The translations under genes were made by a program, and so were the position numbers. From assembly GCF_007752345.1 (NCBI RefSeq), contig NZ_CP036299.1, positions 248,001-312,000 of the forward strand: 64,000 nt of DNA. The letters are read 5' to 3'. Shown here piece after piece: positions 25,109-36,656 of the stretch (positions are counted from its first letter, which is position 1; each line of letters starts with the position of its first letter). The notes below the pieces were generated by a model. The model saw only the letters and a program-made list of their open reading frames with translations. It searched no databases and was not told the origin of the DNA. This stretch comes from Planctopirus ephydatiae (GTDB taxonomy: Bacteria > Planctomycetota > Planctomycetia > Planctomycetales > Planctomycetaceae).

Positions 25109-25186
25109 TATCAGGGCCCTGGGCTGAGATCTTGGCCAGGCATGGGCCTTGGAAATTGATTGACCCTCGCTAGGACGAAGTCATTG

Positions 25187-27043
25187 ATGCCGACTGATCA
25201 GACACTCCGGCCTGTTGTCAGGCAGTCGCAGATCGAGAGCCTGCTGGCTGATTTGAGCCGCTGGGCCCAGGCCAGTGCGACTTCGAGCGTGGTTCGCGAA
25301 CAGCAAAGGCTTTTGGGCAGCCTGCTGGTCGCTGCTCCCGAACTGGTCGCACGAATTCAGTCACCACTTTTGATCGCCACCTTTGGCGGTACCGGTGTGG
25401 GCAAGAGTACTCTTGTCAATGCGCTGGTCGGTGCAGAAATCACGCGGGCAGGTGTCACCCGGCCCACGACATGTGTCCCGACACTGGTGATCCATCAGGA
25501 GACTTCGCTCTCATCCTTAGGGTTTTCGACACCCAGGTCATCCGCCTCGCCTCGAGAGACATCCGCACCCGAGTTCCACGTTCAACAACTCGATCTGCCG
25601 ATTCTCAAACAGTTTGCTCTGCTTGATTTTCCCGATGTCGATGTGGATGAAGTCGCCATTGAAGGGAGCAATCTCGCCAGAGTCCGCGAACTCCTCCCGT
25701 TATGCGATGTCCTCCTCGTCGTCAGTACTCAGGAGAAGTATCGCCAGGCCAGATTGCAGACCGAATTGCGCGCTGCAGCCTCGCATGCGCGAGTTCTTTT
25801 CGTGCAGACATTTGCCGATCGCGATGACGACATTCGTGAAGACTGGCGCAAGGATCTTGTTCGCGATTTTGAACTGGTCGAGATCTTCTTTGTCGATTCG
25901 AAAAAGGCTCTCGAAGAGAGCCGACGCGGCATGCGACCAGCCGGCGAGTTTGGTCAATTGATGGCGACACTCGAGCAGGAATCGATCGACGGCCTGCGTC
26001 CACTCTTAAGGCATAACAACCTCATTGACCTGATTGAGAATACGCTCTCGCAGGCCAGAAGTGCATTAGCAGCCCATCGTCCACTCGTGCAGCGTGTTTC
26101 TGATCGTCTGGAGGCTGAAGATCGAAAACTGACTGCGAAACTTTCCGAGCGGCTCAAGACCGAACTCGAGAGCGAGCAGCAGCCGTGGGAAGAACGCCTG
26201 ATCTCGGCTGTGGCCGAAACATGGACGATCAGTCCACTCAGTGCTCTGTTGCGATTTCGAGCCCGCTGGAGCACTTTTTTAGGTTCGTATGCCCTGTTGA
26301 GATCGCGCACTGTCGTGCAGGCGACGATTGCCGGGAGCCTGCAGGCGGTCGACTGGCTGCAAAGATCGCAGCGGGATAGTCAGGCCCGCGCGGCTCTGGA
26401 TCAACTGGGAACCTCGGTACTGACGGAGGCCGACTTGAGAAACCTGGCCTCGATCGTGCAGGGAGATGCCTCACAGGCCGGGTTTGATCCGATTGACTGG
26501 TCGACCGACCAGCGCCGGCAGGAAGCTGGTCAGTTGCAGCTCACCATGTGTCTGAAGGCGCGGGAACTGGTCGATCAACTCGTGCAGAAACTGGTCAAAT
26601 CCAATGCCAGCCCGGTTGTCCGCTGGGGCTACGAAATTCTGTTGTGCCTCTTCCCGGCCTGGCTGTTGTGGCGCATCTGTTACAACTTCTTTTACGAGGC
26701 CTTCTGGCTGGGCAAGCCTCATCTCGAAACGAGCTTTTACTTCCCCGCAGCACTCCTCCTCGTCGGCTGGTGTGCGCTGTGGGTCTGGCTGATCACCCGT
26801 CGGCTGAAGCGGGGCCTGCAGCACGAAATTCGAGCCTTAGCCAGCGATCTCGCCAGGCAGCAGATTCCGGGCGGTCTCTTTATCCAGCTTCGAGAACGGG
26901 TCGATCAGTTCGAGCAGTTCGAACGAGAAGTGCAGAACCTGCACGAGCGCGCCCGCGTGATTCAGAAAGATCTCCGCAACAGACCAACCCACCTCGGCTT
27001 CTCCCGGCATCAAAGGCTTCTCGAAACATCGAAAACCCCATAA
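25187..27043 (+). CDS. Membrane-anchored dynamin/Era-like GTPase
   Basis: 618 residues from ATG at 25187 (AGGA upstream; a TTG at 25160 would add nine). The P-loop GGTGVGKST is at residues 67-75, followed by a switch-I-like GVTRPTTCVPT and a G3-like LLDFPDVDVDE where DxPG would be expected. The NKxD position is degenerate: the best candidate is VQTFADRDDD. After a long helical region with LEAEDRKLTAKLSERLKTELE, two hydrophobic segments (WGYEILLCLFPAWLLWRICY and FPAALLLVGWCALWVWLI, near residues 480-550) anchor it to membrane, and a coiled-coil-like tail closes it. The architecture recalls bacterial dynamin-like or YcjX/YeeP-type GTPases. The specific role is unknown. Confidence 0.75.
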   Translation: MPTDQTLRPVVRQSQIESLLADLSRWAQASATSSVVREQQRLLGSLLVAAPELVARIQSPLLIATFGGTGVGKSTLVNALVGAEITRAGVTRPTTCVPTLVIHQETSLSSLGFSTPRSSASPRETSAPEFHVQQLDLPILKQFALLDFPDVDVDEVAIEGSNLARVRELLPLCDVLLVVSTQEKYRQARLQTELRAAASHARVLFVQTFADRDDDIREDWRKDLVRDFELVEIFFVDSKKALEESRRGMRPAGEFGQLMATLEQESIDGLRPLLRHNNLIDLIENTLSQARSALAAHRPLVQRVSDRLEAEDRKLTAKLSERLKTELESEQQPWEERLISAVAETWTISPLSALLRFRARWSTFLGSYALLRSRTVVQATIAGSLQAVDWLQRSQRDSQARAALDQLGTSVLTEADLRNLASIVQGDASQAGFDPIDWSTDQRRQEAGQLQLTMCLKARELVDQLVQKLVKSNASPVVRWGYEILLCLFPAWLLWRICYNFFYEAFWLGKPHLETSFYFPAALLLVGWCALWVWLITRRLKRGLQHEIRALASDLARQQIPGGLFIQLRERVDQFEQFEREVQNLHERARVIQKDLRNRPTHLGFSRHQRLLETSKTP

Positions 27044-27118: not shown

Positions 27119-30070
27119 TTAACCACTTCCACCAGCGGACGTGGCCTGGTTGACGTCGAGCTTGCCTGTGGTGGGGTTAAACTCGATGCGTTTAGCTGTT
27201 TGAGGAACGCCGCCTCCAGGGCCTTCGCGCCAGATGGTCGCTTCGCGATTCCCCACGGCCTTGAGAATGAACAGTCCCTTCGACTGATCGTAGCTCACCT
27301 GATCGGCCCGGGCATGAAAGCCGTTGCCTTCGAGGATCGTGTTGCCATTGGCGAACAGTTCCATCCATGGTTTCTGGCTGGCATTCGCTGCACTCTCCAG
27401 TGGCTGACGCTGGATAAGTTCCAGGCTGTCGCAACGCATCGAGCCAGCGTTTTTGGTCAGTTGATCGGGATGAATCGTGGCGACAGAGGTTTCGACGGGC
27501 CCGTGAACCACCTGAACTCGATCATGGAAGGTCGTGCCGCGTGATTCGATATTCCCGATCATTTTGCCATTGAAGTCGACGCTTGTGTAATCCCACGGGC
27601 TCTGGTCCGCTGTGAGTGGCCGGTTGGCGCGGGCGGATGTGGCAGAAGCTTGCTGGATCGTCGATTCCGGCTCCCGGCGCCAGATCTGCAGCTTCCCTTT
27701 GCCAATCGCACTGGCGGCACCAGTCGCTGGTTCCAGCCTTAACTGCCAGACATTGGCCCGGCGAATCTGCGTGAGCAGGCCCTGCTTACGTTCGTAACTT
27801 TCCAGACGCACACCATCTTTACACAGGATTACCGCCAGATCGGTCTTCGGTTGCTGGCCTTGCTGCTGTGCGAACAGGATGCGCTGCGTCAGTTCGACTT
27901 CCATCTGCTGACAGTTCATCCGGTGGTTATTGATCGCCTCGGGAGTGTGGCTCGCAAAACTGGCGAAGATGTTTCCATCGAAGGAGGCTCTACGGCCATC
28001 GAAGATCATTTTTTCCTGCCACGAGATATCCAGAATTTCGGGCTGCGCCATCAGTTGACCCGAAGTATCTTTTTCGATGGGTAACTGAATGTTTCCTGCC
28101 CCATCGACCCAGGCCAGATTCTCGGTGCGATCGAGGTGCACGGCTGGCCCGCGAATGAGCATGCCACTATCACGAATCTCTGCGGGAGAGCCGTAAACGT
28201 GCACGACTTGCCGGGCTTCGCCTTCGTTTTTGAGATGAAGCTTCTGTCCGCGCAGATCGAGAGGTGGCTTGTTATCGATGCGTGCCTGGCTGAGCTGAAA
28301 ATCTTTTTCTGTCCAGACATCGCTCACCATGGGCTCGCCCGTTTTCAGATCAGGCTTCATGAGCACCTTCAAATGGCCGGCTTTCATGCGAAATGGCTTC
28401 GTGTTCGCAGCCGATGATGGATTGCCCGACGCGGGAAGCATCCCTTCGGAACTGTTACCGGCAGACTTTTGGCCTTCTGGCTTTTTTTCACCTGGCTGAC
28501 GATTGAAGTCGCCCTCGAAATCGACCAGCAACGTCTCGGCTTCGGCTTCGAGTTGAGGGGAAAGCATGGCGACGTTCTTTTCCGCCAGGAGACGGCGGGG
28601 CTGAATATTCAAAGCGTCCGGCTGTAAATTGCCACTCTGCAGGCTCGCCACTGAAGGCGCGGGCCTGCCGGGAGCCAGGCTGAGAGGTGTGACCCAGACA
28701 CGGATCTGGTCGGCACCCAGGGCGGTTTTCTGGCCCGGCTGTCGGAAGGACGCCTGATTATTCAGTTCGATGACATCGAGCCGGGTTTCGGGATCGGCAA
28801 ATTTTCTGAGGTGAGTTTTCCAGCCGGCGGCGTATTGAATGAGTTGTGTCGCTGGATCGCGAGTTTCGAGTACGCCTGGCCCTGCGCAGAGAATGTCGCC
28901 AATGGTGTCGGCCTCGCCAATGGCGATCTGAACGCCGGGCGACTGCAATCGATTCTCGCCATGCCAGAGCTGGACCCCTTTGGGATCACTCATCACAAGT
29001 ATGCGATCGACGGCATTGTAAACGAGAGAAGTCATCTCGCCCTTGAAGTTCTGCTGAGTCGAAACGGTGCGGACGAGTCGTCCTTCGGCTTTCAATGAAG
29101 CAAAACGCAAATCAGTACGGATCCTGCGGAACTCGGCCTCTTCGGGCTTCGCTGTGGGAGGAGCAGGGACGTTCGCCACGTCCTCCGGCTTTCGAGGAAC
29201 AAATCCGAGAGTCAGCCGTTCGCAGCGCAGCCAGTCTGTCTGTCCGGCCACGGGTTCGCGATAAACAAGCACGTCGTCTTTCTGAGCACGCTCGGCTTCG
29301 AAGATGGCCACTTCATCTTCGACCAGATACTCAAAGCTGCCTGCCGTTTTGATGTGCAGAGGAAGTGGTTCCTGCTTGTTCTTGAGCACCACTTCCATCT
29401 TGACATTCCGCCGGAGCCTGACACTTTTGAGACCGATAATGGCGGGTCGATCGGAGTGCATGGTGTATTCAGCGGGGATCAGCTCAGCCTGCAATTGACC
29501 GGCAGTCCCACGATGAGGCCCCAGAGCAAACGAAACCGGGTGATCGCTGTACATGCGAGCTGCCGATTCCGACAGATAAAAGTTGCGCCCTTTGATCATC
29601 AGCCCTTCCGGGCCAGCCACAGAGACTTCGCCCTCCAGCGCACCGGCGATAATACGCCCCGGGTTTGGTGAGCGGACATCGAATTGCGAGGCAAACTTAA
29701 GGAGTGCCGATTCTGCGACGAGCGTGGTGATCTGCGTTTTCCCTTTACGCTCATTCACCACTACCATGGCAAGCGGACGAAAGCGAATTTCGCCTCGATT
29801 TCCTTCCGGCATCCACTCGTTGGCATACAGGTAGGTATGATCCGAACGAATCTGATACTGAGAATCGATCGCCCAGGTGACATGCGGCAGATGTTCGCGG
29901 GCAATGCGTACGTTCTCGGCACTGCTGGAGAGACGTTCGTGGGGTTCAGCGACCGCTATGGTGACCTGTCTCTCGGGACGAGCCAGGAGCCAGCCACTCG
30001 CCACGCGATAGGCCATAAAGAGGCCTAACAGGCCCGATACGACAGTCCCTGTCAGCATCAGTCGCTTCAT
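27119..30070 (-). CDS. Giant OstA/LptA-like envelope protein
   Basis: 983 residues. An N-terminal membrane anchor (residues 1-29, MLTGTVVSGLLGLFMAY) is followed by an LptC-like region and then several stretches of short beta-strands of the OstA/LptA kind: SLVYNAVDRILVMSDPKGV, LRGQKLHLKNEGEARQVVHV, GPAVHLDRTENLAWVDGAG and, near the C-terminus, LFANGNTILEGNGFHARADQ with VSYDQSKGLFILKAVGNREA. The latter is the clearest OstA signature. LptC and LptA are normally about 190 residues each, so this is a fused, extended version. Its ATG overlaps the kdsD stop by four bases. I infer a role in moving lipopolysaccharide across the periplasm; the domain count needs a structure model. Confidence 0.7.
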   Translation of the reverse strand: MKRLMLTGTVVSGLLGLFMAYRVASGWLLARPERQVTIAVAEPHERLSSSAENVRIAREHLPHVTWAIDSQYQIRSDHTYLYANEWMPEGNRGEIRFRPLAMVVVNERKGKTQITTLVAESALLKFASQFDVRSPNPGRIIAGALEGEVSVAGPEGLMIKGRNFYLSESAARMYSDHPVSFALGPHRGTAGQLQAELIPAEYTMHSDRPAIIGLKSVRLRRNVKMEVVLKNKQEPLPLHIKTAGSFEYLVEDEVAIFEAERAQKDDVLVYREPVAGQTDWLRCERLTLGFVPRKPEDVANVPAPPTAKPEEAEFRRIRTDLRFASLKAEGRLVRTVSTQQNFKGEMTSLVYNAVDRILVMSDPKGVQLWHGENRLQSPGVQIAIGEADTIGDILCAGPGVLETRDPATQLIQYAAGWKTHLRKFADPETRLDVIELNNQASFRQPGQKTALGADQIRVWVTPLSLAPGRPAPSVASLQSGNLQPDALNIQPRRLLAEKNVAMLSPQLEAEAETLLVDFEGDFNRQPGEKKPEGQKSAGNSSEGMLPASGNPSSAANTKPFRMKAGHLKVLMKPDLKTGEPMVSDVWTEKDFQLSQARIDNKPPLDLRGQKLHLKNEGEARQVVHVYGSPAEIRDSGMLIRGPAVHLDRTENLAWVDGAGNIQLPIEKDTSGQLMAQPEILDISWQEKMIFDGRRASFDGNIFASFASHTPEAINNHRMNCQQMEVELTQRILFAQQQGQQPKTDLAVILCKDGVRLESYERKQGLLTQIRRANVWQLRLEPATGAASAIGKGKLQIWRREPESTIQQASATSARANRPLTADQSPWDYTSVDFNGKMIGNIESRGTTFHDRVQVVHGPVETSVATIHPDQLTKNAGSMRCDSLELIQRQPLESAANASQKPWMELFANGNTILEGNGFHARADQVSYDQSKGLFILKAVGNREATIWREGPGGGVPQTAKRIEFNPTTGKLDVNQATSAGGSG

Positions 30071-31242
30071 GCGGAGGGCTTTGTATCCGGGGAATGTCCC
30101 GCAGTCCTGGCGGGAAAGGTGATGGTATGAGGCAATGCGGAATCTCTGGGTAAATGCTCCCGCCCCGCCCCTGAAGGATCGACAGGAGCTGCCGTTTCCA
30201 AAGGCGTCAGGCCAATCATGTCGGTGATATCAACCAGTCCGACAGGATGTCCTGATTCATCGACAACAGGGAATTCACTCAGGCGGCGTTCGGCAAACAG
30301 CTGCAGCACTTCTTCCAGCAGCATGGTGGGTGAAATTGTCGTAGGGCGGCTTGTCATCACGTTACGAATGGGGGCATCGAGTTGCTCATCAAGCTTCTGT
30401 TCGAGCAGTCGGGCAAGATCGCTATCGGTGAAAATGCCTGTCAGCAGGCCCTCTTCATCGACGAGCATGACGGCCCCAGTCCGTCGCCCGGGTCTGGATT
30501 GCCCGATAAAGACATTCCGCACCGAGGTTGTTTCGAGAGCAATACGGACATCCTGTGCTTTTCGCATGACTTCACTGACGACCGTCAAGCGGCGGCCCAA
30601 GGTCCCGGCAGGGTGCAATCGGGCAAAATCGCGAGCCGAAAAAGATCGACGTTTACAAGTGACAAACGCGAGTGCATCGCCAATCGCCAGCATGGCGGTT
30701 GTCGAGGTCGAAGGGGCCAGTCCCTGGACACCACACTCATGCAGGCGACCCATGGTGACGACCACTTGCGAGGCCCGGCCCAGAGTACTGACGGGCGAGG
30801 CGGTGACACTGACCACGGGAATGCCCCGTTCTTCAAAAATCGGCAGCAAGGCGAGCAGTTCTGCGGTCTCACCACTGTTGGAAAAGGCCAGGATCACATC
30901 GTCTGGCCCCACACAGCCCAGGTCGCCATGCAAGGCTTCTGTGGGATGGAGAAAATAAGCGCGCGAGCCCGTCGAGCACAACGTGGCGGTGATCTTCTGG
31001 CCAATGAGGCCCGCTTTACCAATCCCGGTGACAATCACGGCCCCGCGAGTATTCGAAAGGTATTCGACAGCCGCACAGAACGAAGCATCGAGCCGACGGG
31101 AAAGATCGAGCAGCGCCTGCCCTTCCGTGCGGAGAATCTCCCGGCCTTCGCGCAGCTCATCGAGTGGAGTGATCATGGCAGTATCATCGGCATGGCGCGC
31201 GGGCTCGAAGGCCGACGCGGCGGCAGCAGGTCGCGCACTCAT
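30067..31242 (-). CDS. kdsD: Arabinose-5-phosphate isomerase KdsD/KpsF (SIS + CBS)
   Basis: 391 residues from ATG at 31242, with GGAGG seven bases upstream. The enzyme converts ribulose-5-phosphate to arabinose-5-phosphate, the first step to KDO of lipopolysaccharide. The SIS domain has VIVTGIGKAGLIGQKITATL, FLHPTEALHGDLGCV, SNSGETAELLALLP and RDFARLHPAGTLGRRL, all typical. Two CBS domains follow (VMLVDEEGLLTGIFTDSDLA and FPVVDESGHPVGLVDITDM). The C-terminus has an extra 45-residue Pro-rich tail beyond the usual end. It overlaps the start of the OstA-like gene, indicating translational coupling of KDO supply with LPS transport. Confidence 0.93.
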   Translation of the reverse strand: MSARPAAAASAFEPARHADDTAMITPLDELREGREILRTEGQALLDLSRRLDASFCAAVEYLSNTRGAVIVTGIGKAGLIGQKITATLCSTGSRAYFLHPTEALHGDLGCVGPDDVILAFSNSGETAELLALLPIFEERGIPVVSVTASPVSTLGRASQVVVTMGRLHECGVQGLAPSTSTTAMLAIGDALAFVTCKRRSFSARDFARLHPAGTLGRRLTVVSEVMRKAQDVRIALETTSVRNVFIGQSRPGRRTGAVMLVDEEGLLTGIFTDSDLARLLEQKLDEQLDAPIRNVMTSRPTTISPTMLLEEVLQLFAERRLSEFPVVDESGHPVGLVDITDMIGLTPLETAAPVDPSGAGREHLPRDSALPHTITFPARTAGHSPDTKPSA

Positions 31243-31520: not shown

Positions 31521-32777
31521 TTAGCGCTGCAGGCTCTGGCCAAGGACGGAAAGTGCTCGAATATGGCGTGCCGCTTCGCGATGGCCCAGCCTGGGTGTCA
31601 TCGCAGCGATCTCTGCCTGATGGATCGCTTCCAGTGCCTGATCGACCTGTTGAGCATCATTCTGCAAACGGCTCGACAGGCGGCGTTTGCGACCGGAAGC
31701 TTCCTGCAGTCGATATTCCGTGAGCCAGTATCTTAAATATTGAAATAACACGAACTGACAATCCGCCGATCGCCAGAGAATTCGCCCCAGTGCACTCGTG
31801 TGTTCGACGATTTCCCGCTGAGACGTTTCTTCGAGAACAACCGTAGGCCCGAACCGGCAACTGTTCCACCAGCCATAGAGCATGAACAGCAGCAGAATCT
31901 GTACGGAAATCGAACGCAGTGGTGGCTGAAACAAGACACCCATCATCTGGGGTGTCGCCCGGGTATTGAGAGATTCATCAAAAGCGATGACCACATCGTC
32001 GAGGCTTTGCCCCGGCCCGGCCGCTTCGCGAATCAGTTCATAAGCCAAAGCGCTGTTATCGCCATAGGTCAGAAGCTGGTTGGAAAAGATCCACGGGCTG
32101 GCAACAAAAAGAGCCGACCCTCGCCCCGCGTTCACCATGACAGCCTGAGGCGAGCCATCCTGAGAAACAAGCACTTTTCCGCCGGGAGTCGATGTCACTT
32201 CCCCTTCCGGCCACCACAGAAACCGGCCTCCTAAGGGGAGGTTCAGCTGGGGTGGAATGCGGTCATCAGCCGGGCCTTGTTCGGGCGTGATTTCACCTTC
32301 GAATGGGCCTAACGAGTCGACTTCACCCGGAGGAGGCGCATAGACCAGGCGACCTCCCATGTTGACCCACGAATAGAGGCTGTTCCACTCGGCTTCATTC
32401 GGAATTCGCGGCGGGTTCAAAATCAACAATTGTGTGCCATCGGGGTCAACCAGTTCCATCAGTCGATCCAGCGGTGCATCGTTGCGATAGACAAAAGCAT
32501 CCTGTTCGAGAATCTCGTACAAAGCTTTGAAACCATCGGCAGAAGTACTGTAACTCGTCGCAGTGCGAGGAGCAGGGATCGGGGGAAAGTAAAAGTGCAT
32601 TCCCAGCACAACGGCTGCCAACGAACCCCAGATCAGACTGGGAATCAACCATGGCTGCTGCTTCCACGCGGGATTTCGAGTCCCCTTTGTCAAAGGGGGA
32701 GCAGTTGCCGACCGGTTCTGAGGATTCATTGTCCCCGGGGGAGCACCTGCCGATCGATTTGCAGAAAATCGACTCAT
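31521..32777 (-). CDS. DUF4350 membrane protein
   Basis: 418 residues. A Pro/Asn-rich N-terminus leads into one membrane segment (LIPSLIWGSLAAVVLGMHFY, about residues 44-63), then the DUF4350 domain (YSTSADGFKALYEILEQ, LLILNPPRIPNEAEWNSLYS, WVNMGGRLVYAPPPGEVDS) that resembles an extracytoplasmic class I glutamine-amidotransferase-like fold. A second membrane segment (LRSISVQILLLFMLYGWW) precedes a cytoplasmic tail. It is the last gene of a four-gene chain and its ATG overlaps the stop of the DUF4129 gene. In other genomes the next genes are MoxR and DUF58; here the chain ends. Confidence 0.85.
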   Translation of the reverse strand: MSRFSANRSAGAPPGTMNPQNRSATAPPLTKGTRNPAWKQQPWLIPSLIWGSLAAVVLGMHFYFPPIPAPRTATSYSTSADGFKALYEILEQDAFVYRNDAPLDRLMELVDPDGTQLLILNPPRIPNEAEWNSLYSWVNMGGRLVYAPPPGEVDSLGPFEGEITPEQGPADDRIPPQLNLPLGGRFLWWPEGEVTSTPGGKVLVSQDGSPQAVMVNAGRGSALFVASPWIFSNQLLTYGDNSALAYELIREAAGPGQSLDDVVIAFDESLNTRATPQMMGVLFQPPLRSISVQILLLFMLYGWWNSCRFGPTVVLEETSQREIVEHTSALGRILWRSADCQFVLFQYLRYWLTEYRLQEASGRKRRLSSRLQNDAQQVDQALEAIHQAEIAAMTPRLGHREAARHIRALSVLGQSLQR

Positions 32778-34690
32778 GAGAGATCTCCTGTGCGGAGAGC
32801 TGCCGGGAGTGATTCATTGCGAATCAGCGGTTCAAAAGTGCTGGCGTAAGCGGTGCGGGCGGCCAGCCAAGCCTCGGCGGTGTGAGGTTGCCTGCCAAAT
32901 TCGAGTGGTTCAAAAACTCGCACAATGGCTGAGAATCCGTGCGAAAGATCGGTTTCAAATCCCATCGCCCGCTGATAGTCGCGGAGAGTCAAACCCCGCC
33001 GATAACGCACCAGGCCCGATCGTTCGGCGAAACTCATCCCGCTGAGAAGTAATTGGGCAATCGCATCGCGATAACGACCCAGCCCTGCCAGTTCGTCAGC
33101 CCGGGCCAGGTAGATATCAGCCGGGATGAGGCCAGGCTCAGAAAGAATTTCACCTTCTTCAAGGGCTGTCGTATTCGCGTCGGTGAACTCCAGTTCTCGG
33201 GAACGTAGGGAGGCCATAATCGACATGACAATTGCGACAATGATGGCCACGATGACGACAGCCACAATCAGATAGGCCAGAAAAGTTCCGACGGCCCCCA
33301 ACCCGAGCAGAGAGCTCAGATCCAGTGAGGGTGCATTCATCCCGGAGGAAGGTGTGGCTGGTTCCGCTGGAGCAGAACCTTGGGATGAGGAAGGTTGGCT
33401 CTGTGAACTTGATGGCCCACTCCCCTTGGAACTGGAACGTGATTTCGATCGCTGGACCTTTTTTTCTGTACCATCGCCAGAACCCTTCTTTGAAGATCGC
33501 ATGGAACCTGGCAAGGTGCGGGAACTGCTGGCATCGCTACTGGACGAACGCGATCGAGGTGGCAATAACGATTCCCGCGCCTGTTCAACGCCTTCAACAT
33601 CGTCGGCATTGAAGTGTTCGAAGTAACGGTACTCCGGTTGTTCGAGTGTTTTCCGCGCCTGAGGAACAACGGGGTGACTGGGAACTTGAGCTGTATCGGC
33701 AGCGCGGGCCGATAGCGGTGCATTTCCCAGTATCAGCGAAAGCAATCCCAACGTCGCCAGAGCCAACAGGCCCACGCGTAAAGGCCTGGGCGTCGATTTC
33801 CTGCGAATGTCGTGAGCCGCCTGATTCATTGCCAGTTCGAGATCCCAGCAGTCTTCACGGACACGTAGATTGATATATTCACCCACCCAGGCGAGACGTC
33901 CCAGCGAAAAAGCCGCCAGTACACACAACGTGGCTGCAAAGAGCAGTCGCGGATCGGTCGTGAGAAACAACGTCGAGATTTCCCAATACTCTTCGGGGAC
34001 AGCATCGACCGCTGCTAAGCCCTGATTCATTTTCAGCAGCGGCCCCAGGCAGAACGAGGCACCAAACCAGACTTCCGCCAGGACATCTGCAGAGATCAGG
34101 AGCACGATCGACAGACAGAAGATCCAGATTCCCAGACCGAAGGCATTGACCACGAGATCGGAATGGTGGGAGCTGATCAGCTTCTTCAAATGGTGTTCGT
34201 GTCCACTTTTCCGGCGCGATCGCAACGCATGATTTTCGGGCTGAAAAGTGAAATGGACAGCAGCCACCAGGCTGCCAATACCACACATCAAAAGACCCGC
34301 CAGTGCCACCATCCGGCGGAGAATCGACATGACGATGACCTTGAAACGGACTTGCCCTAAGGCTTCTCGATAGGTGGTGGCATTTCCCATCAGTAAAGCC
34401 GTCATGGTGGTGGCAATGACGACACCCAATGGGCCCGAAACCAGTACCCACAGAACCGGGGCGCACCACGCCAGGCGATAATCAATCATCGAGAACCCGG
34501 CAATTGCACAGGCCGTGGGCAAGGCGATTGCCAGGTAGGTCAGAAGCAAACCTTTCCACTGCCAGCGGAGAGCATGGAAGGCCAGATCGATCGAGTTCAG
34601 CAGTGAGAGGCCTCGCAGATCGACCTGAGGGACAGCGGCTGTCTCTCGTCGATCCGAGGTGGTTGCATCAAGGGTTGGATTCTGGTTCAT
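32774..34690 (-). CDS. Multi-pass membrane protein with C-terminal DUF4129
   Basis: 638 residues from ATG at 34690, which overlaps the stop of the SpoIIM gene as ATGA. Residues about 30-340 hold six or more hydrophobic segments (for example LLLTYLAIALPTACAIAGF). A low-complexity Ser/Lys/Arg/Gly region follows (RSKSRSSSKGSGPSSSQSQ), then one more membrane helix (LIVAVVIVAIIVAIVMSIM) and the DUF4129 domain (ELAGLGRYRDAIAQLLLSGM, RRGLTLRDYQRA). DUF4129 proteins cluster with transglutaminase, MoxR and DUF58 genes. I infer a membrane complex with its three neighbours; no enzymatic motif is seen. Confidence 0.85.
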   Translation of the reverse strand: MNQNPTLDATTSDRRETAAVPQVDLRGLSLLNSIDLAFHALRWQWKGLLLTYLAIALPTACAIAGFSMIDYRLAWCAPVLWVLVSGPLGVVIATTMTALLMGNATTYREALGQVRFKVIVMSILRRMVALAGLLMCGIGSLVAAVHFTFQPENHALRSRRKSGHEHHLKKLISSHHSDLVVNAFGLGIWIFCLSIVLLISADVLAEVWFGASFCLGPLLKMNQGLAAVDAVPEEYWEISTLFLTTDPRLLFAATLCVLAAFSLGRLAWVGEYINLRVREDCWDLELAMNQAAHDIRRKSTPRPLRVGLLALATLGLLSLILGNAPLSARAADTAQVPSHPVVPQARKTLEQPEYRYFEHFNADDVEGVEQARESLLPPRSRSSSSDASSSRTLPGSMRSSKKGSGDGTEKKVQRSKSRSSSKGSGPSSSQSQPSSSQGSAPAEPATPSSGMNAPSLDLSSLLGLGAVGTFLAYLIVAVVIVAIIVAIVMSIMASLRSRELEFTDANTTALEEGEILSEPGLIPADIYLARADELAGLGRYRDAIAQLLLSGMSFAERSGLVRYRRGLTLRDYQRAMGFETDLSHGFSAIVRVFEPLEFGRQPHTAEAWLAARTAYASTFEPLIRNESLPAALRTGDLS

Positions 34691-35685
34691 GCGCGCTGCC
34701 TGCCTGACCAGCCCAAATACATGGCGACGCTGAACCACAGAAACCCACCCACCAGAAATTTGTACTCCGATGGAATCGGGGCCGGTGACCAGAAGGCTTC
34801 AATGAGTGCCGCCACCACCAGCATGAAGGCTGCTCCAACGGCCAGTTGCCCGGCATCTCTCCCTCGCAGACGCAATGCCGACCAGCGTGACAACTGGCCC
34901 GGATGAAGTGCTGCATCTCCCACGAGCAGCCCGGCCCCACCAGCAATCGCAATGGCTGTTAATTCGAATGAGCCGTGCGAAACGACAAAGCCCAGAAATC
35001 GATCGGCATGACCGAGAGACAGGACATAACCAGCCGTGGCTCCAATCGAAATGCCATTAAAGAGCAGCGTATAGATCGTCCCAATACCCAGGAGAATCCC
35101 GCGGGCAAAACATTGCAGGGCAATCCCGACGTTATGCTGGACATAGAAACCCGCCATCGAAGCGCGCTCGTTGCCATAATCGTTCCACGAATCAAACGAG
35201 AAGGCCGATTCGTCGATAGAGGCTGAATCTTCGCTGGAGTACATCATGTCGTACTGATCGAGAGCTTCCTGCGACATGAAACGCGCTGCCAGTGCGGGCT
35301 CATTCTGAATCAGAATCCAACTGATGATCAGCGGCCCAAAGAACAAAAGTGCGGCCAGCAGTTGATAGCCCCACCAGGTGCGGAAGATGCGGGGAAATTC
35401 CATGAACAGAAACTGACCTATGGTATGCCACGTTCCCGCGCGAGGGGCGTGGAAATAATCATGCCCCCTAGCCAGCAGCCGGTTCAGATATTCTTCGAGA
35501 TCGAGGCCCCAGTCGCGTGTCCGCACCTGTTCGAGATCGTGGGCGACTTCGCGCAGTTGGCGCGAAAAGGCCAGGACTTCCTCAGAGGAGAGCCGCCGCT
35601 GGTTGACGCTTTCGACACGTCTGAGCGATTTTTCGAAGTTTTGCCAGGCGGGCTTTCGCTGGGCCAGAAAAGTGGCTCGCTTCAC
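34687..35685 (-). CDS. SpoIIM-family (DUF95) membrane protein
   Basis: 332 residues. The soluble N-terminal part (KPAWQNFEKSLRRVE, then LSSEEVLAFSRQLREVAHDL) is typical of non-spore SpoIIM proteins. Five or so membrane segments follow: FPRIFRTWWGYQLLAALLFF, GILLGIGTIYTLLFNGISIG, FVVSHGSFELTAIAIAGGAG, plus two at the C-terminus. The HGSFELTAI motif with its polar residues inside the membrane is the family signature. In SpoIIM of endospore formers the protein is part of the DMP peptidoglycan-remodelling complex; in planctomycetes the role is unknown. Its ATG overlaps the stop of the RDD gene. Confidence 0.9.
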   Translation of the reverse strand: MKRATFLAQRKPAWQNFEKSLRRVESVNQRRLSSEEVLAFSRQLREVAHDLEQVRTRDWGLDLEEYLNRLLARGHDYFHAPRAGTWHTIGQFLFMEFPRIFRTWWGYQLLAALLFFGPLIISWILIQNEPALAARFMSQEALDQYDMMYSSEDSASIDESAFSFDSWNDYGNERASMAGFYVQHNVGIALQCFARGILLGIGTIYTLLFNGISIGATAGYVLSLGHADRFLGFVVSHGSFELTAIAIAGGAGLLVGDAALHPGQLSRWSALRLRGRDAGQLAVGAAFMLVVAALIEAFWSPAPIPSEYKFLVGGFLWFSVAMYLGWSGRQRA

Positions 35686-36521
35686 ATGAGCCTCGCTTTC
35701 GCCGGCGTGATGACGGCCGCTTTCTCATCTCGTGCAGTTTGGAAAGTGGCACAGACCCGGGCCAGAAAGGCCATCGGGAACTTGCGTACCTGTTCGCGGT
35801 CACCTGTGAATTCCATCCGCTCTGCCAGAGTATCCGCCAGTTCGGAAGCCAACTGATGCCCCCGCTGATAAGTCAGTTTGGAACGTCGCCCGAGAAACTC
35901 GGCAATCGTCGACAATTGCGCCTGAGTGGGGATAAAGCCGTTCGATTCGTACCGGGTGATCGGGGCAATATGGTCGAGGATCATCGGTTGTTTCGGCAGG
36001 ACAATCGGGTGAACCTGCACGACCATTGTTCCCGCAGCGAGATCGCCCAGCCTTTGAAACTTCTGGGTCATCGACATCGCCAGAAGCCCGGGGCCATAGA
36101 AAGGGAGAATCCCGAGCCAGGCCACATCCTCAAAGACCATGGCAATAGGCAGCATGTCGGCCACACGCAAAAGATTCCGCAGGACAGCCCCCCAGAAGGT
36201 GAGTGGTGCGCCCGAGGTATGAATCACCCGGATCCCTACCAGCCATTTACCCATCGAATAGCCATTCCAGAAGCCTTCCTGAACGATGTAGTACAGCCAC
36301 TCGATAAAGAAGAGTGCCAGCAGGATGCCACCAATCGTGAATCCCGGCAGGATGGCAGCAATCAGGCAGGCACCAATCAGGAGTGCCGTGATGAGCAACA
36401 CGCGGAAAAGGCAGTCGATAGCATAGGCCGCACTGCGCAGGGCAGGACCTGCCAGTTGGTAGGCGAGCCGGACATTTTCCGGCGTCTCGAGACGAACATT
36501 CAAACTGACTTCAGCAGCCAC
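35682..36521 (-). CDS. RDD-family membrane protein
   Basis: 279 residues from GTG at 36521, which has GGGAG seven bases upstream; the ATG at 36542 would overlap that site and add seven residues. The RDD domain (PALRSAAYAIDCLFRVLL; Arg and Asp of the motif are seen) comprises several membrane segments, with the conserved WNGYSMGKWLVGIRVIHTSG and LTFWGAVLRNLLRVADMLP. The last 100 residues are soluble and helical. RDD proteins may carry small solutes or ions, but no substrate can be given. It is the first gene of the RDD-SpoIIM-DUF4129-DUF4350 chain. Confidence 0.9.
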   Translation of the reverse strand: MAAEVSLNVRLETPENVRLAYQLAGPALRSAAYAIDCLFRVLLITALLIGACLIAAILPGFTIGGILLALFFIEWLYYIVQEGFWNGYSMGKWLVGIRVIHTSGAPLTFWGAVLRNLLRVADMLPIAMVFEDVAWLGILPFYGPGLLAMSMTQKFQRLGDLAAGTMVVQVHPIVLPKQPMILDHIAPITRYESNGFIPTQAQLSTIAEFLGRRSKLTYQRGHQLASELADTLAERMEFTGDREQVRKFPMAFLARVCATFQTARDEKAAVITPAKARLM

Positions 36522-36656
36522 ACAGATTCTCCCGGGAAACATGACCGCGGATGAATCGTATCAGGGAGATCTGGTCAGAAGATAGCGGCGGGCTGAGCTT
36601 CACAGCACATTTGTGAGCGAACGATGGAAAGTTCAATTTCGAACACATCAAAACGC

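Follow-up and report, generated by a model that had tools for sequence, protein, structure and literature searches.

Does Planctopirus ephydatiae export lipopolysaccharide (LPS) across its periplasm by way of one long protein, where other bacteria use separate LptC and LptA proteins? The question is raised by a locus in the 64,000-nucleotide stretch of genomic DNA analysed here (assembly GCF_007752345.1, contig NZ_CP036299.1, positions 248,001 to 312,000; the window), in which kdsD, a gene for the supply of 3-deoxy-D-manno-octulosonic acid (KDO), is followed by a gene for a 983-residue protein. We conclude that this gene, referred to here as the bridge gene, very probably encodes the planctomycete counterpart of LptC plus LptA on a single polypeptide, predicted to be anchored in the inner membrane.

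The bridge gene starts with ATG and runs for 983 codons without an internal stop. A preliminary description of this DNA had reported that the two genes overlap by ATGA, and the stop and start coordinates confirm it; the overlap suggests that they are co-transcribed. The kdsD gene (start at 31242, with the longest open reading frame [ORF] reaching 31284, and end at 30067) codes for a KpsF/GutQ/KdsD-type protein that scores 245.5 bits against NCBIfam TIGR00393 (cut-off, 203.7), matches the narrower KdsD and GutQ equivalogs under their own cut-offs, and carries a SIS domain and two CBS stretches in a Pfam scan. Of 199 genomes of the phylum, 13 give a match when the bridge protein is the lone query. 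When 12 homologues are combined into a profile, the family is recovered in 282 of 297 genomes of the class, and in 255 of the 261 with completeness of 90% or more and contamination of 5% or less; a chance ORF is ruled out because of this conservation. Most genomes have one match and some have two, and the majority of the matches listed span almost the full length, in frames of about 1,000 codons. A 41-row family profile matches 38 of the 199 genomes in the phylum draw, along its full length in the 12 from the class and only partially in the other 26.

The gene order is also conserved among 50 genomes read closely (49 of the class and one, G172, from another class), which were picked by best score or for diversity and not at random, and in which the bridge-family ORFs are 971 to 1,144 residues long (median, 1,033). 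A kdsD gene lies upstream on the same strand and within 1 kb in 49 of the 50, including all 49 of the class, with G172 as the sole exception; the median gap is 68 bases. A KdsC-type motif is found between the two genes in 16 of the 50 genomes, and all ten of the in-between genes tested (four from the class and six from other classes) pass NCBIfam TIGR01670 for the KdsC phosphatase subfamily, while falling short of the narrower KdsC equivalog cut-off. The order in Escherichia coli K-12 is kdsD-kdsC-lptC-lptA-lptB; the bridge gene therefore occupies the place of lptC-lptA, and its genetic linkage with KDO genes is as in E. coli.

Kinship with LptA is evident from the family rather than from the single protein, which alone matches Pfam PF03968 (LptD_N/LptA) near its C-terminus (residues 876-938) at E=0.18, finds no match in an NCBIfam scan, and retrieves only unrelated proteins in a PDB search (best E=0.36). 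Because these single-sequence scans give a sub-threshold LptA-type domain or nothing related, we expect that ordinary annotation would leave the protein hypothetical. In scans of individual sequences, PF03968 is matched at E<=0.5 (best, 2.4e-11) by 35 of 41 family members, and of nine members scanned singly against the gathering score of 20.4 bits, seven are over it, one is under, and one has no match. The Pfam LptC domain (PF06835) matches seven of the 41, weakly (best, 0.0025). Searched against PDB sequences, the 41-row profile returns nine matches up to E=1, of which seven are LptA and two LptD; the best LptA match has E=5.2e-5, and the LptA chains align to profile positions of about 680-727. 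The chain is also internally repetitive, with the profile matching itself off the diagonal at a best E of 2.2e-14, and with 560-740 aligning to 718-890 (E=1.6e-8) and to 354-462 (E=8.8e-6).

The predicted structure is that of a short anchor followed by beta-taco units. The AlphaFold2 model of the whole chain (mean predicted local distance difference test [pLDDT] 79.4, predicted template modelling score [pTM] 0.58) has a helix at residues 2-29, a short helix at 51-60, and 59 strands, and is otherwise nearly all beta; a separate model of the N-terminal half (residues 58-525) has a pLDDT of 85.4 and a pTM of 0.83. In VIA superpositions, residues 78-239 resemble LptC (4b54_B, Z 10.9, root mean square deviation [rmsd] 3.2, 121 aligned; 6mit_C, Z 10.7, rmsd 3.8, 135 aligned), and residues 339-506 and 767-948 superpose on solved LptA (2r1a_C, Z 12.6, rmsd 3.5, 126 aligned; 2r1a_H, Z 14.5, rmsd 1.8, 125 aligned). 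A Foldseek search with the whole model finds LptD at E=4.3e-10 and gives a probability of 1.00 to chains of LptC and of LptA. The predicted models thus hold a beta-taco that superposes on solved LptA and, in order, an N-terminal helix, which presumably inserts into the membrane, and an LptC-like beta-taco. The preliminary description had proposed an N-terminal anchor leading into many OstA-like strand groups. The strand groups are borne out by the 59 predicted strands and the internal repeats, with LptC- and LptA-type beta-taco units along the predicted chain; the anchor stands as a predicted helix, albeit one of moderate hydrophobicity (best 19-residue Kyte-Doolittle mean, 1.42). Coordinates of the genes and units are given in Table 1.

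Table 1. Features of the kdsD-bridge gene locus (window positions)
Feature	Position	Strand	Basis
Bridge protein, single-chain LptC-LptA-like, 983 residues (predicted)	27119..30070	-	ORF, family profile, predicted fold
kdsD/kpsF, arabinose-5-phosphate isomerase with SIS and CBS, initial step of KDO supply	30067..31242	-	TIGR00393
ATGA overlap, kdsD stop with bridge-gene start	30067..30070	-	ORF coordinates
Predicted helix, putative inner-membrane signal anchor, residues 2-29	29984..30067	-	AlphaFold2 model and hydrophobicity
First beta-taco unit, residues 72-292, LptC-like at 78-239	29195..29857	-	VIA LptC superposition
Second unit, residues 321-518, LptA-like at 339-506	28517..29110	-	VIA LptA superposition
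Third unit, residues 560-727	27890..28393	-	Profile repeats link it to other units; LptA chains match ~680-727
Fourth, C-terminal LptA-like unit, residues 745-974	27149..27838	-	VIA LptA superposition and LptD_N E=0.18

Convergent with the bridge gene is a plus-strand gene (25160-27043) for a 627-residue dynamin-like/P-loop GTPase, which matches Dynamin_N at E=3e-5, slightly under the Pfam cut-off, and MMR_HSR1 slightly over its own. Upstream of kdsD, a minus-strand gene run (31521-36542) codes for proteins with DUF4350, DUF4129, SpoIIM-like, and RDD domains.

Other classes of the phylum carry fusions in which LptC is still recognisable. Pfam LptC matches at E<=0.01 in 52 of the 199 phylum genomes (43 over the cut-off), with no such match among the 12 genomes that the class contributes to the draw, and 45 of 53 match rows lie in frames of at least 500 codons, which, being measured from stop to stop, are upper bounds on gene length. 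Twenty other-class loci were picked from the LptC and profile matches; kdsD is recognised in 14 and the profile of the window's family matches 17 at E<=0.1. In eight candidate fusions that were scanned (559 to 1,019 amino acids; e.g., 664 in L115 and 793 in L124), LptC is over the cut-off in all eight and within the first 225 residues, and LptD_N is over the cut-off in four (two to four stretches), under it in two, and absent from two. When a profile of seven other-class proteins is aligned with that of the window's family, the alignment covers 521 columns from near the N-terminal unit onward (probability 99.1%, E=1.5e-18); in the PDB, this other-class profile finds solved structures of LptC (E=1.9e-5) and LptA (E=5e-4), and its 14 matches up to E=1 are 12 LptA/LptH/LptC chains and two carbonic anhydrases (E=0.12). 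Unfused cases are also present, with a 178-codon LptC frame in one genome (G028) and, in another (G018, locus L120), kdsD followed by a 348-residue LptC-bearing ORF and then a distinct 301-residue protein with a match to the profile. These fusions suggest where the bridge protein may have come from, and we read it, from sequence comparison, as a probable longer and more diverged member of a phylum-wide series of LptC-LptA fusions. As a separate observation, at three of the loci (L115:6621-8405, L116:6551-8485, and L122:1268-3286) the gene after the fusion gene encodes a GDPD phosphodiesterase that has HEAT repeats.

We also looked for the Lpt partners LptB, LptF/G, and LptD in the window's genome (one contig, 5.2 Mb, 100% complete), and all are found, LptD as a candidate and the weakest of them. 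LptB scores 308.9 bits (equivalog cut-off, 240) and alone exceeds that cut-off among 42 ATP-binding cassette (ABC) matches; its gene (G000:C1:2197829-2198536, L053) is not grouped with the other lpt genes found: a signal-peptidase gene flanks it on one side and an FtsW/RodA gene on the other. A canonical LptA or LptC beside lptB was considered and rejected, none of the three neighbours scanned being Lpt-like. Two separate genes code for LptF/LptG permeases, LpxC is present (as in 16 of 16 genomes tested), and there is a match to PF04413, the N-terminal domain of the KDO transferase KdtA, indicating a KdtA-type transferase. The candidate for LptD is a 1,025-residue gene with LptD_N at 22.3 bits (cut-off, 20.4); all 16 genomes tested have it, and its family profile best matches solved LptD (E=0.0021); at E<=0.01 a Pfam scan of it shows PF03968 only, LptD_C (PF04453) not having been searched by itself in the genome. 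The proposal of the preliminary description that the KDO-gene link points to LPS export is therefore supported both by the E. coli-like gene order and by the presence of LptB, LptF/LptG, LpxC, the KdtA-type transferase, and a probable LptD elsewhere in the genome.

Several results weigh against a one-chain counterpart of LptC and LptA. The bridge protein itself fails the PF03968 gathering score (12.5 bits versus 20.4), and it is placed with LptA through its family for this reason. Within the class, the resemblance of the N-terminal unit to LptC shows in position and fold and not in Pfam: among the nine of 41 members in which match position was checked (E<=0.1), the only match located lies at 714-761, so that we claim no Pfam LptC domain for the class. 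The whole-chain model has low-confidence stretches at 32-46, 298-312, 464-487, 524-556, and 803-821, and one continuous groove along the chain would go beyond what that model shows (pTM 0.58). Non-Lpt proteins also appear in the structural searches at E<=0.001, with Rhs/teneurin proteins (probability 0.25-0.69) making up seven of the 22 whole-model Foldseek rows, and three of the seven N-half rows being other than Lpt proteins, at low probability (the other four are Lpt proteins). OspA and ApoB reach VIA Z scores of about 6 to 8.2, under the Lpt rows quoted above and level with the weakest Lpt rows. We take OspA/ApoB (VIA) and Rhs/teneurin (Foldseek) to share a beta arrangement only. The family profile finds no match in 15 of the 297 class genomes, one of which is a same-genus draft (88% completeness) and nine of which belong to one family (f81), whose matching members score more weakly (E about 1e-8 to 1e-37). 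Among the 20 other-class loci, six are without a recognised kdsD and three (L118, L127, and L129) are without a match to the window-family profile at E<=0.1. The 1,025-residue gene is probably LptD, the weakest of the partner identifications and weak by sequence. Finally, the searches that found no separate LptC or LptA in the genome, with no match to LptC (PF06835) or to OstA_2 (PF13100, which also missed the E. coli control) at E up to 10, are weak on their own, because the same profiles miss or nearly miss the bridge protein itself.

The explanation that best survives beside ours makes use of those negatives: the chain would be an LptA-like fusion forming only part of the bridge, with a diverged small LptC and/or further LptA encoded elsewhere. 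LptC and LptA diverge quickly, a single-sequence search misses the bridge protein itself, and the PF13100 controls are weak. We nonetheless consider this unlikely, in that PF06835 and PF13100 have no genome match and PF03968 finds only the LptD candidate (over the cut-off) and, both under it, the bridge gene and a place in a 7,852-codon frame; in addition, the first unit past the anchor superposes on LptC in the predicted model, and all eight other-class fusions scanned have Pfam LptC toward the N-terminus. The 7,852-codon open frame (L003, G000:C1:1648682) probably matches LptD_N by chance.

Beta-groove proteins occur in other transport systems, such as the AsmA-like bridge proteins, and a shared fold proves no cargo, so the chain could be an AsmA-like carrier of another lipid or glycolipid with kdsD as an incidental neighbour. 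This is improbable to a greater degree, given that the nearest profiles and the best superpositions are those of LptA, LptC, and LptD, that kdsD is upstream in 49 of the 50 genomes inspected, and that the other-class genes, with Pfam LptC, often follow kdsD-kdsC. An outer-membrane LptD-type protein with a taco plus a barrel is hardly credible, for although LptD structures top the Foldseek list by E-value, good LptD superpositions span about 130-170 residues of the taco part (3.0-4.8 Å) and longer ones have an rmsd above 11 Å, a separate LptD candidate with an LptD profile match is present, and the bridge protein begins with a predicted helix and has a C-terminal part that superposes on LptA.

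For a bridge protein combining LptC and LptA, a mechanism can be proposed. The N-terminal helix would anchor the protein in the inner membrane beside LptB2FG, and the first beta-taco unit would take LPS as LptC does. The next approximately three LptA-like units would form a covalent groove of fixed length, along which LPS would pass toward the N-terminal taco of the outer-membrane protein LptD; if the gene is co-transcribed with kdsD, the supply of the bridge may be tied to that of KDO. We infer that the protein inserts into the membrane, docks to LptFG and to LptD, binds LPS, spans the whole gap, and is essential. That one protein spans the periplasm, as previously suggested, is plausible by size: taking the 59 predicted strands as two sheets with 0.48 nm between strands, we estimate that the chain would be about 14 nm long, and such a chain together with the LptD taco may cross the gap or fall short of it according to how wide the periplasm is. 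That the class has a fully covalent bridge of fixed length, made of an LptC anchored in the inner membrane and some three LptA units and reaching LptD alone, without LptA oligomerisation, is a tentative proposal to which we give slightly less than an even chance. If it holds, the bridge would serve by its length as a ruler for the distance between both membranes, and the Lpt system reported as "largely reduced" in the phylum would be complete after all.

That report is a hidden Markov model survey of Lpt genes, which describes the Lpt system as largely reduced in Planctomycetes (PMC8871954). A planctomycete outer-membrane survey used LptD, BamA, and TonB as markers, and its main text is without the words LptA, LptB, LptC, and LptF (PMC3422733). 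Almost all lipid A synthesis genes are reported as essential in Planctopirus limnophila, in a paper whose main text has no word beginning "Lpt" (PMC10632474). We recognised no report of a planctomycete LptC-LptA fusion or of a one-chain multi-unit bridge among the open-licence papers listed by literature searches; LptC, LptA, and the beta-taco bridge are known as parts, and replacement of both proteins by one multi-unit chain appears to be new. The bridge family would fill the Lpt gap, and it singles out one gene for testing in a group that is amenable to genetics. It also offers natural tests of whether a bridge for LPS has to be put together from subunits or may be a single permanent chain, and of whether bridge length sets the width of the periplasm.

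Among the closest known systems is that of E. coli, which has in common with the bridge protein the beta-taco fold, the order of anchor, LptC unit, and LptA unit, and the place after kdsD(-kdsC). It differs in that lptC and lptA are two separate genes (576 and 558 bp) as opposed to one 983-residue chain of about four units, and in that lptB adjoins lptA in E. coli but is not next door to the bridge gene. Separate proteins are also described elsewhere, unlike the fused bridge protein: two OstA-domain proteins of about 200 residues are reported as possible LptA/LptC in diderm Firmicutes (PMC5007114), as are separate LptA and LptC in the verrucomicrobium Methylacidiphilum (PMC10542722). The N-terminal domain of LptD (PF03968) is similar as a taco domain by both profile and fold, but its superposition is confined to the taco part, which in the bridge protein is preceded by an N-terminal helix. 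The fusions in other planctomycete classes share kdsD-kdsC upstream, the Lpt domains, and a profile alignment with the window's family; those scanned are mostly shorter and are still recognised by Pfam LptC, whereas the proteins of the window's class have diverged past single-sequence detection.

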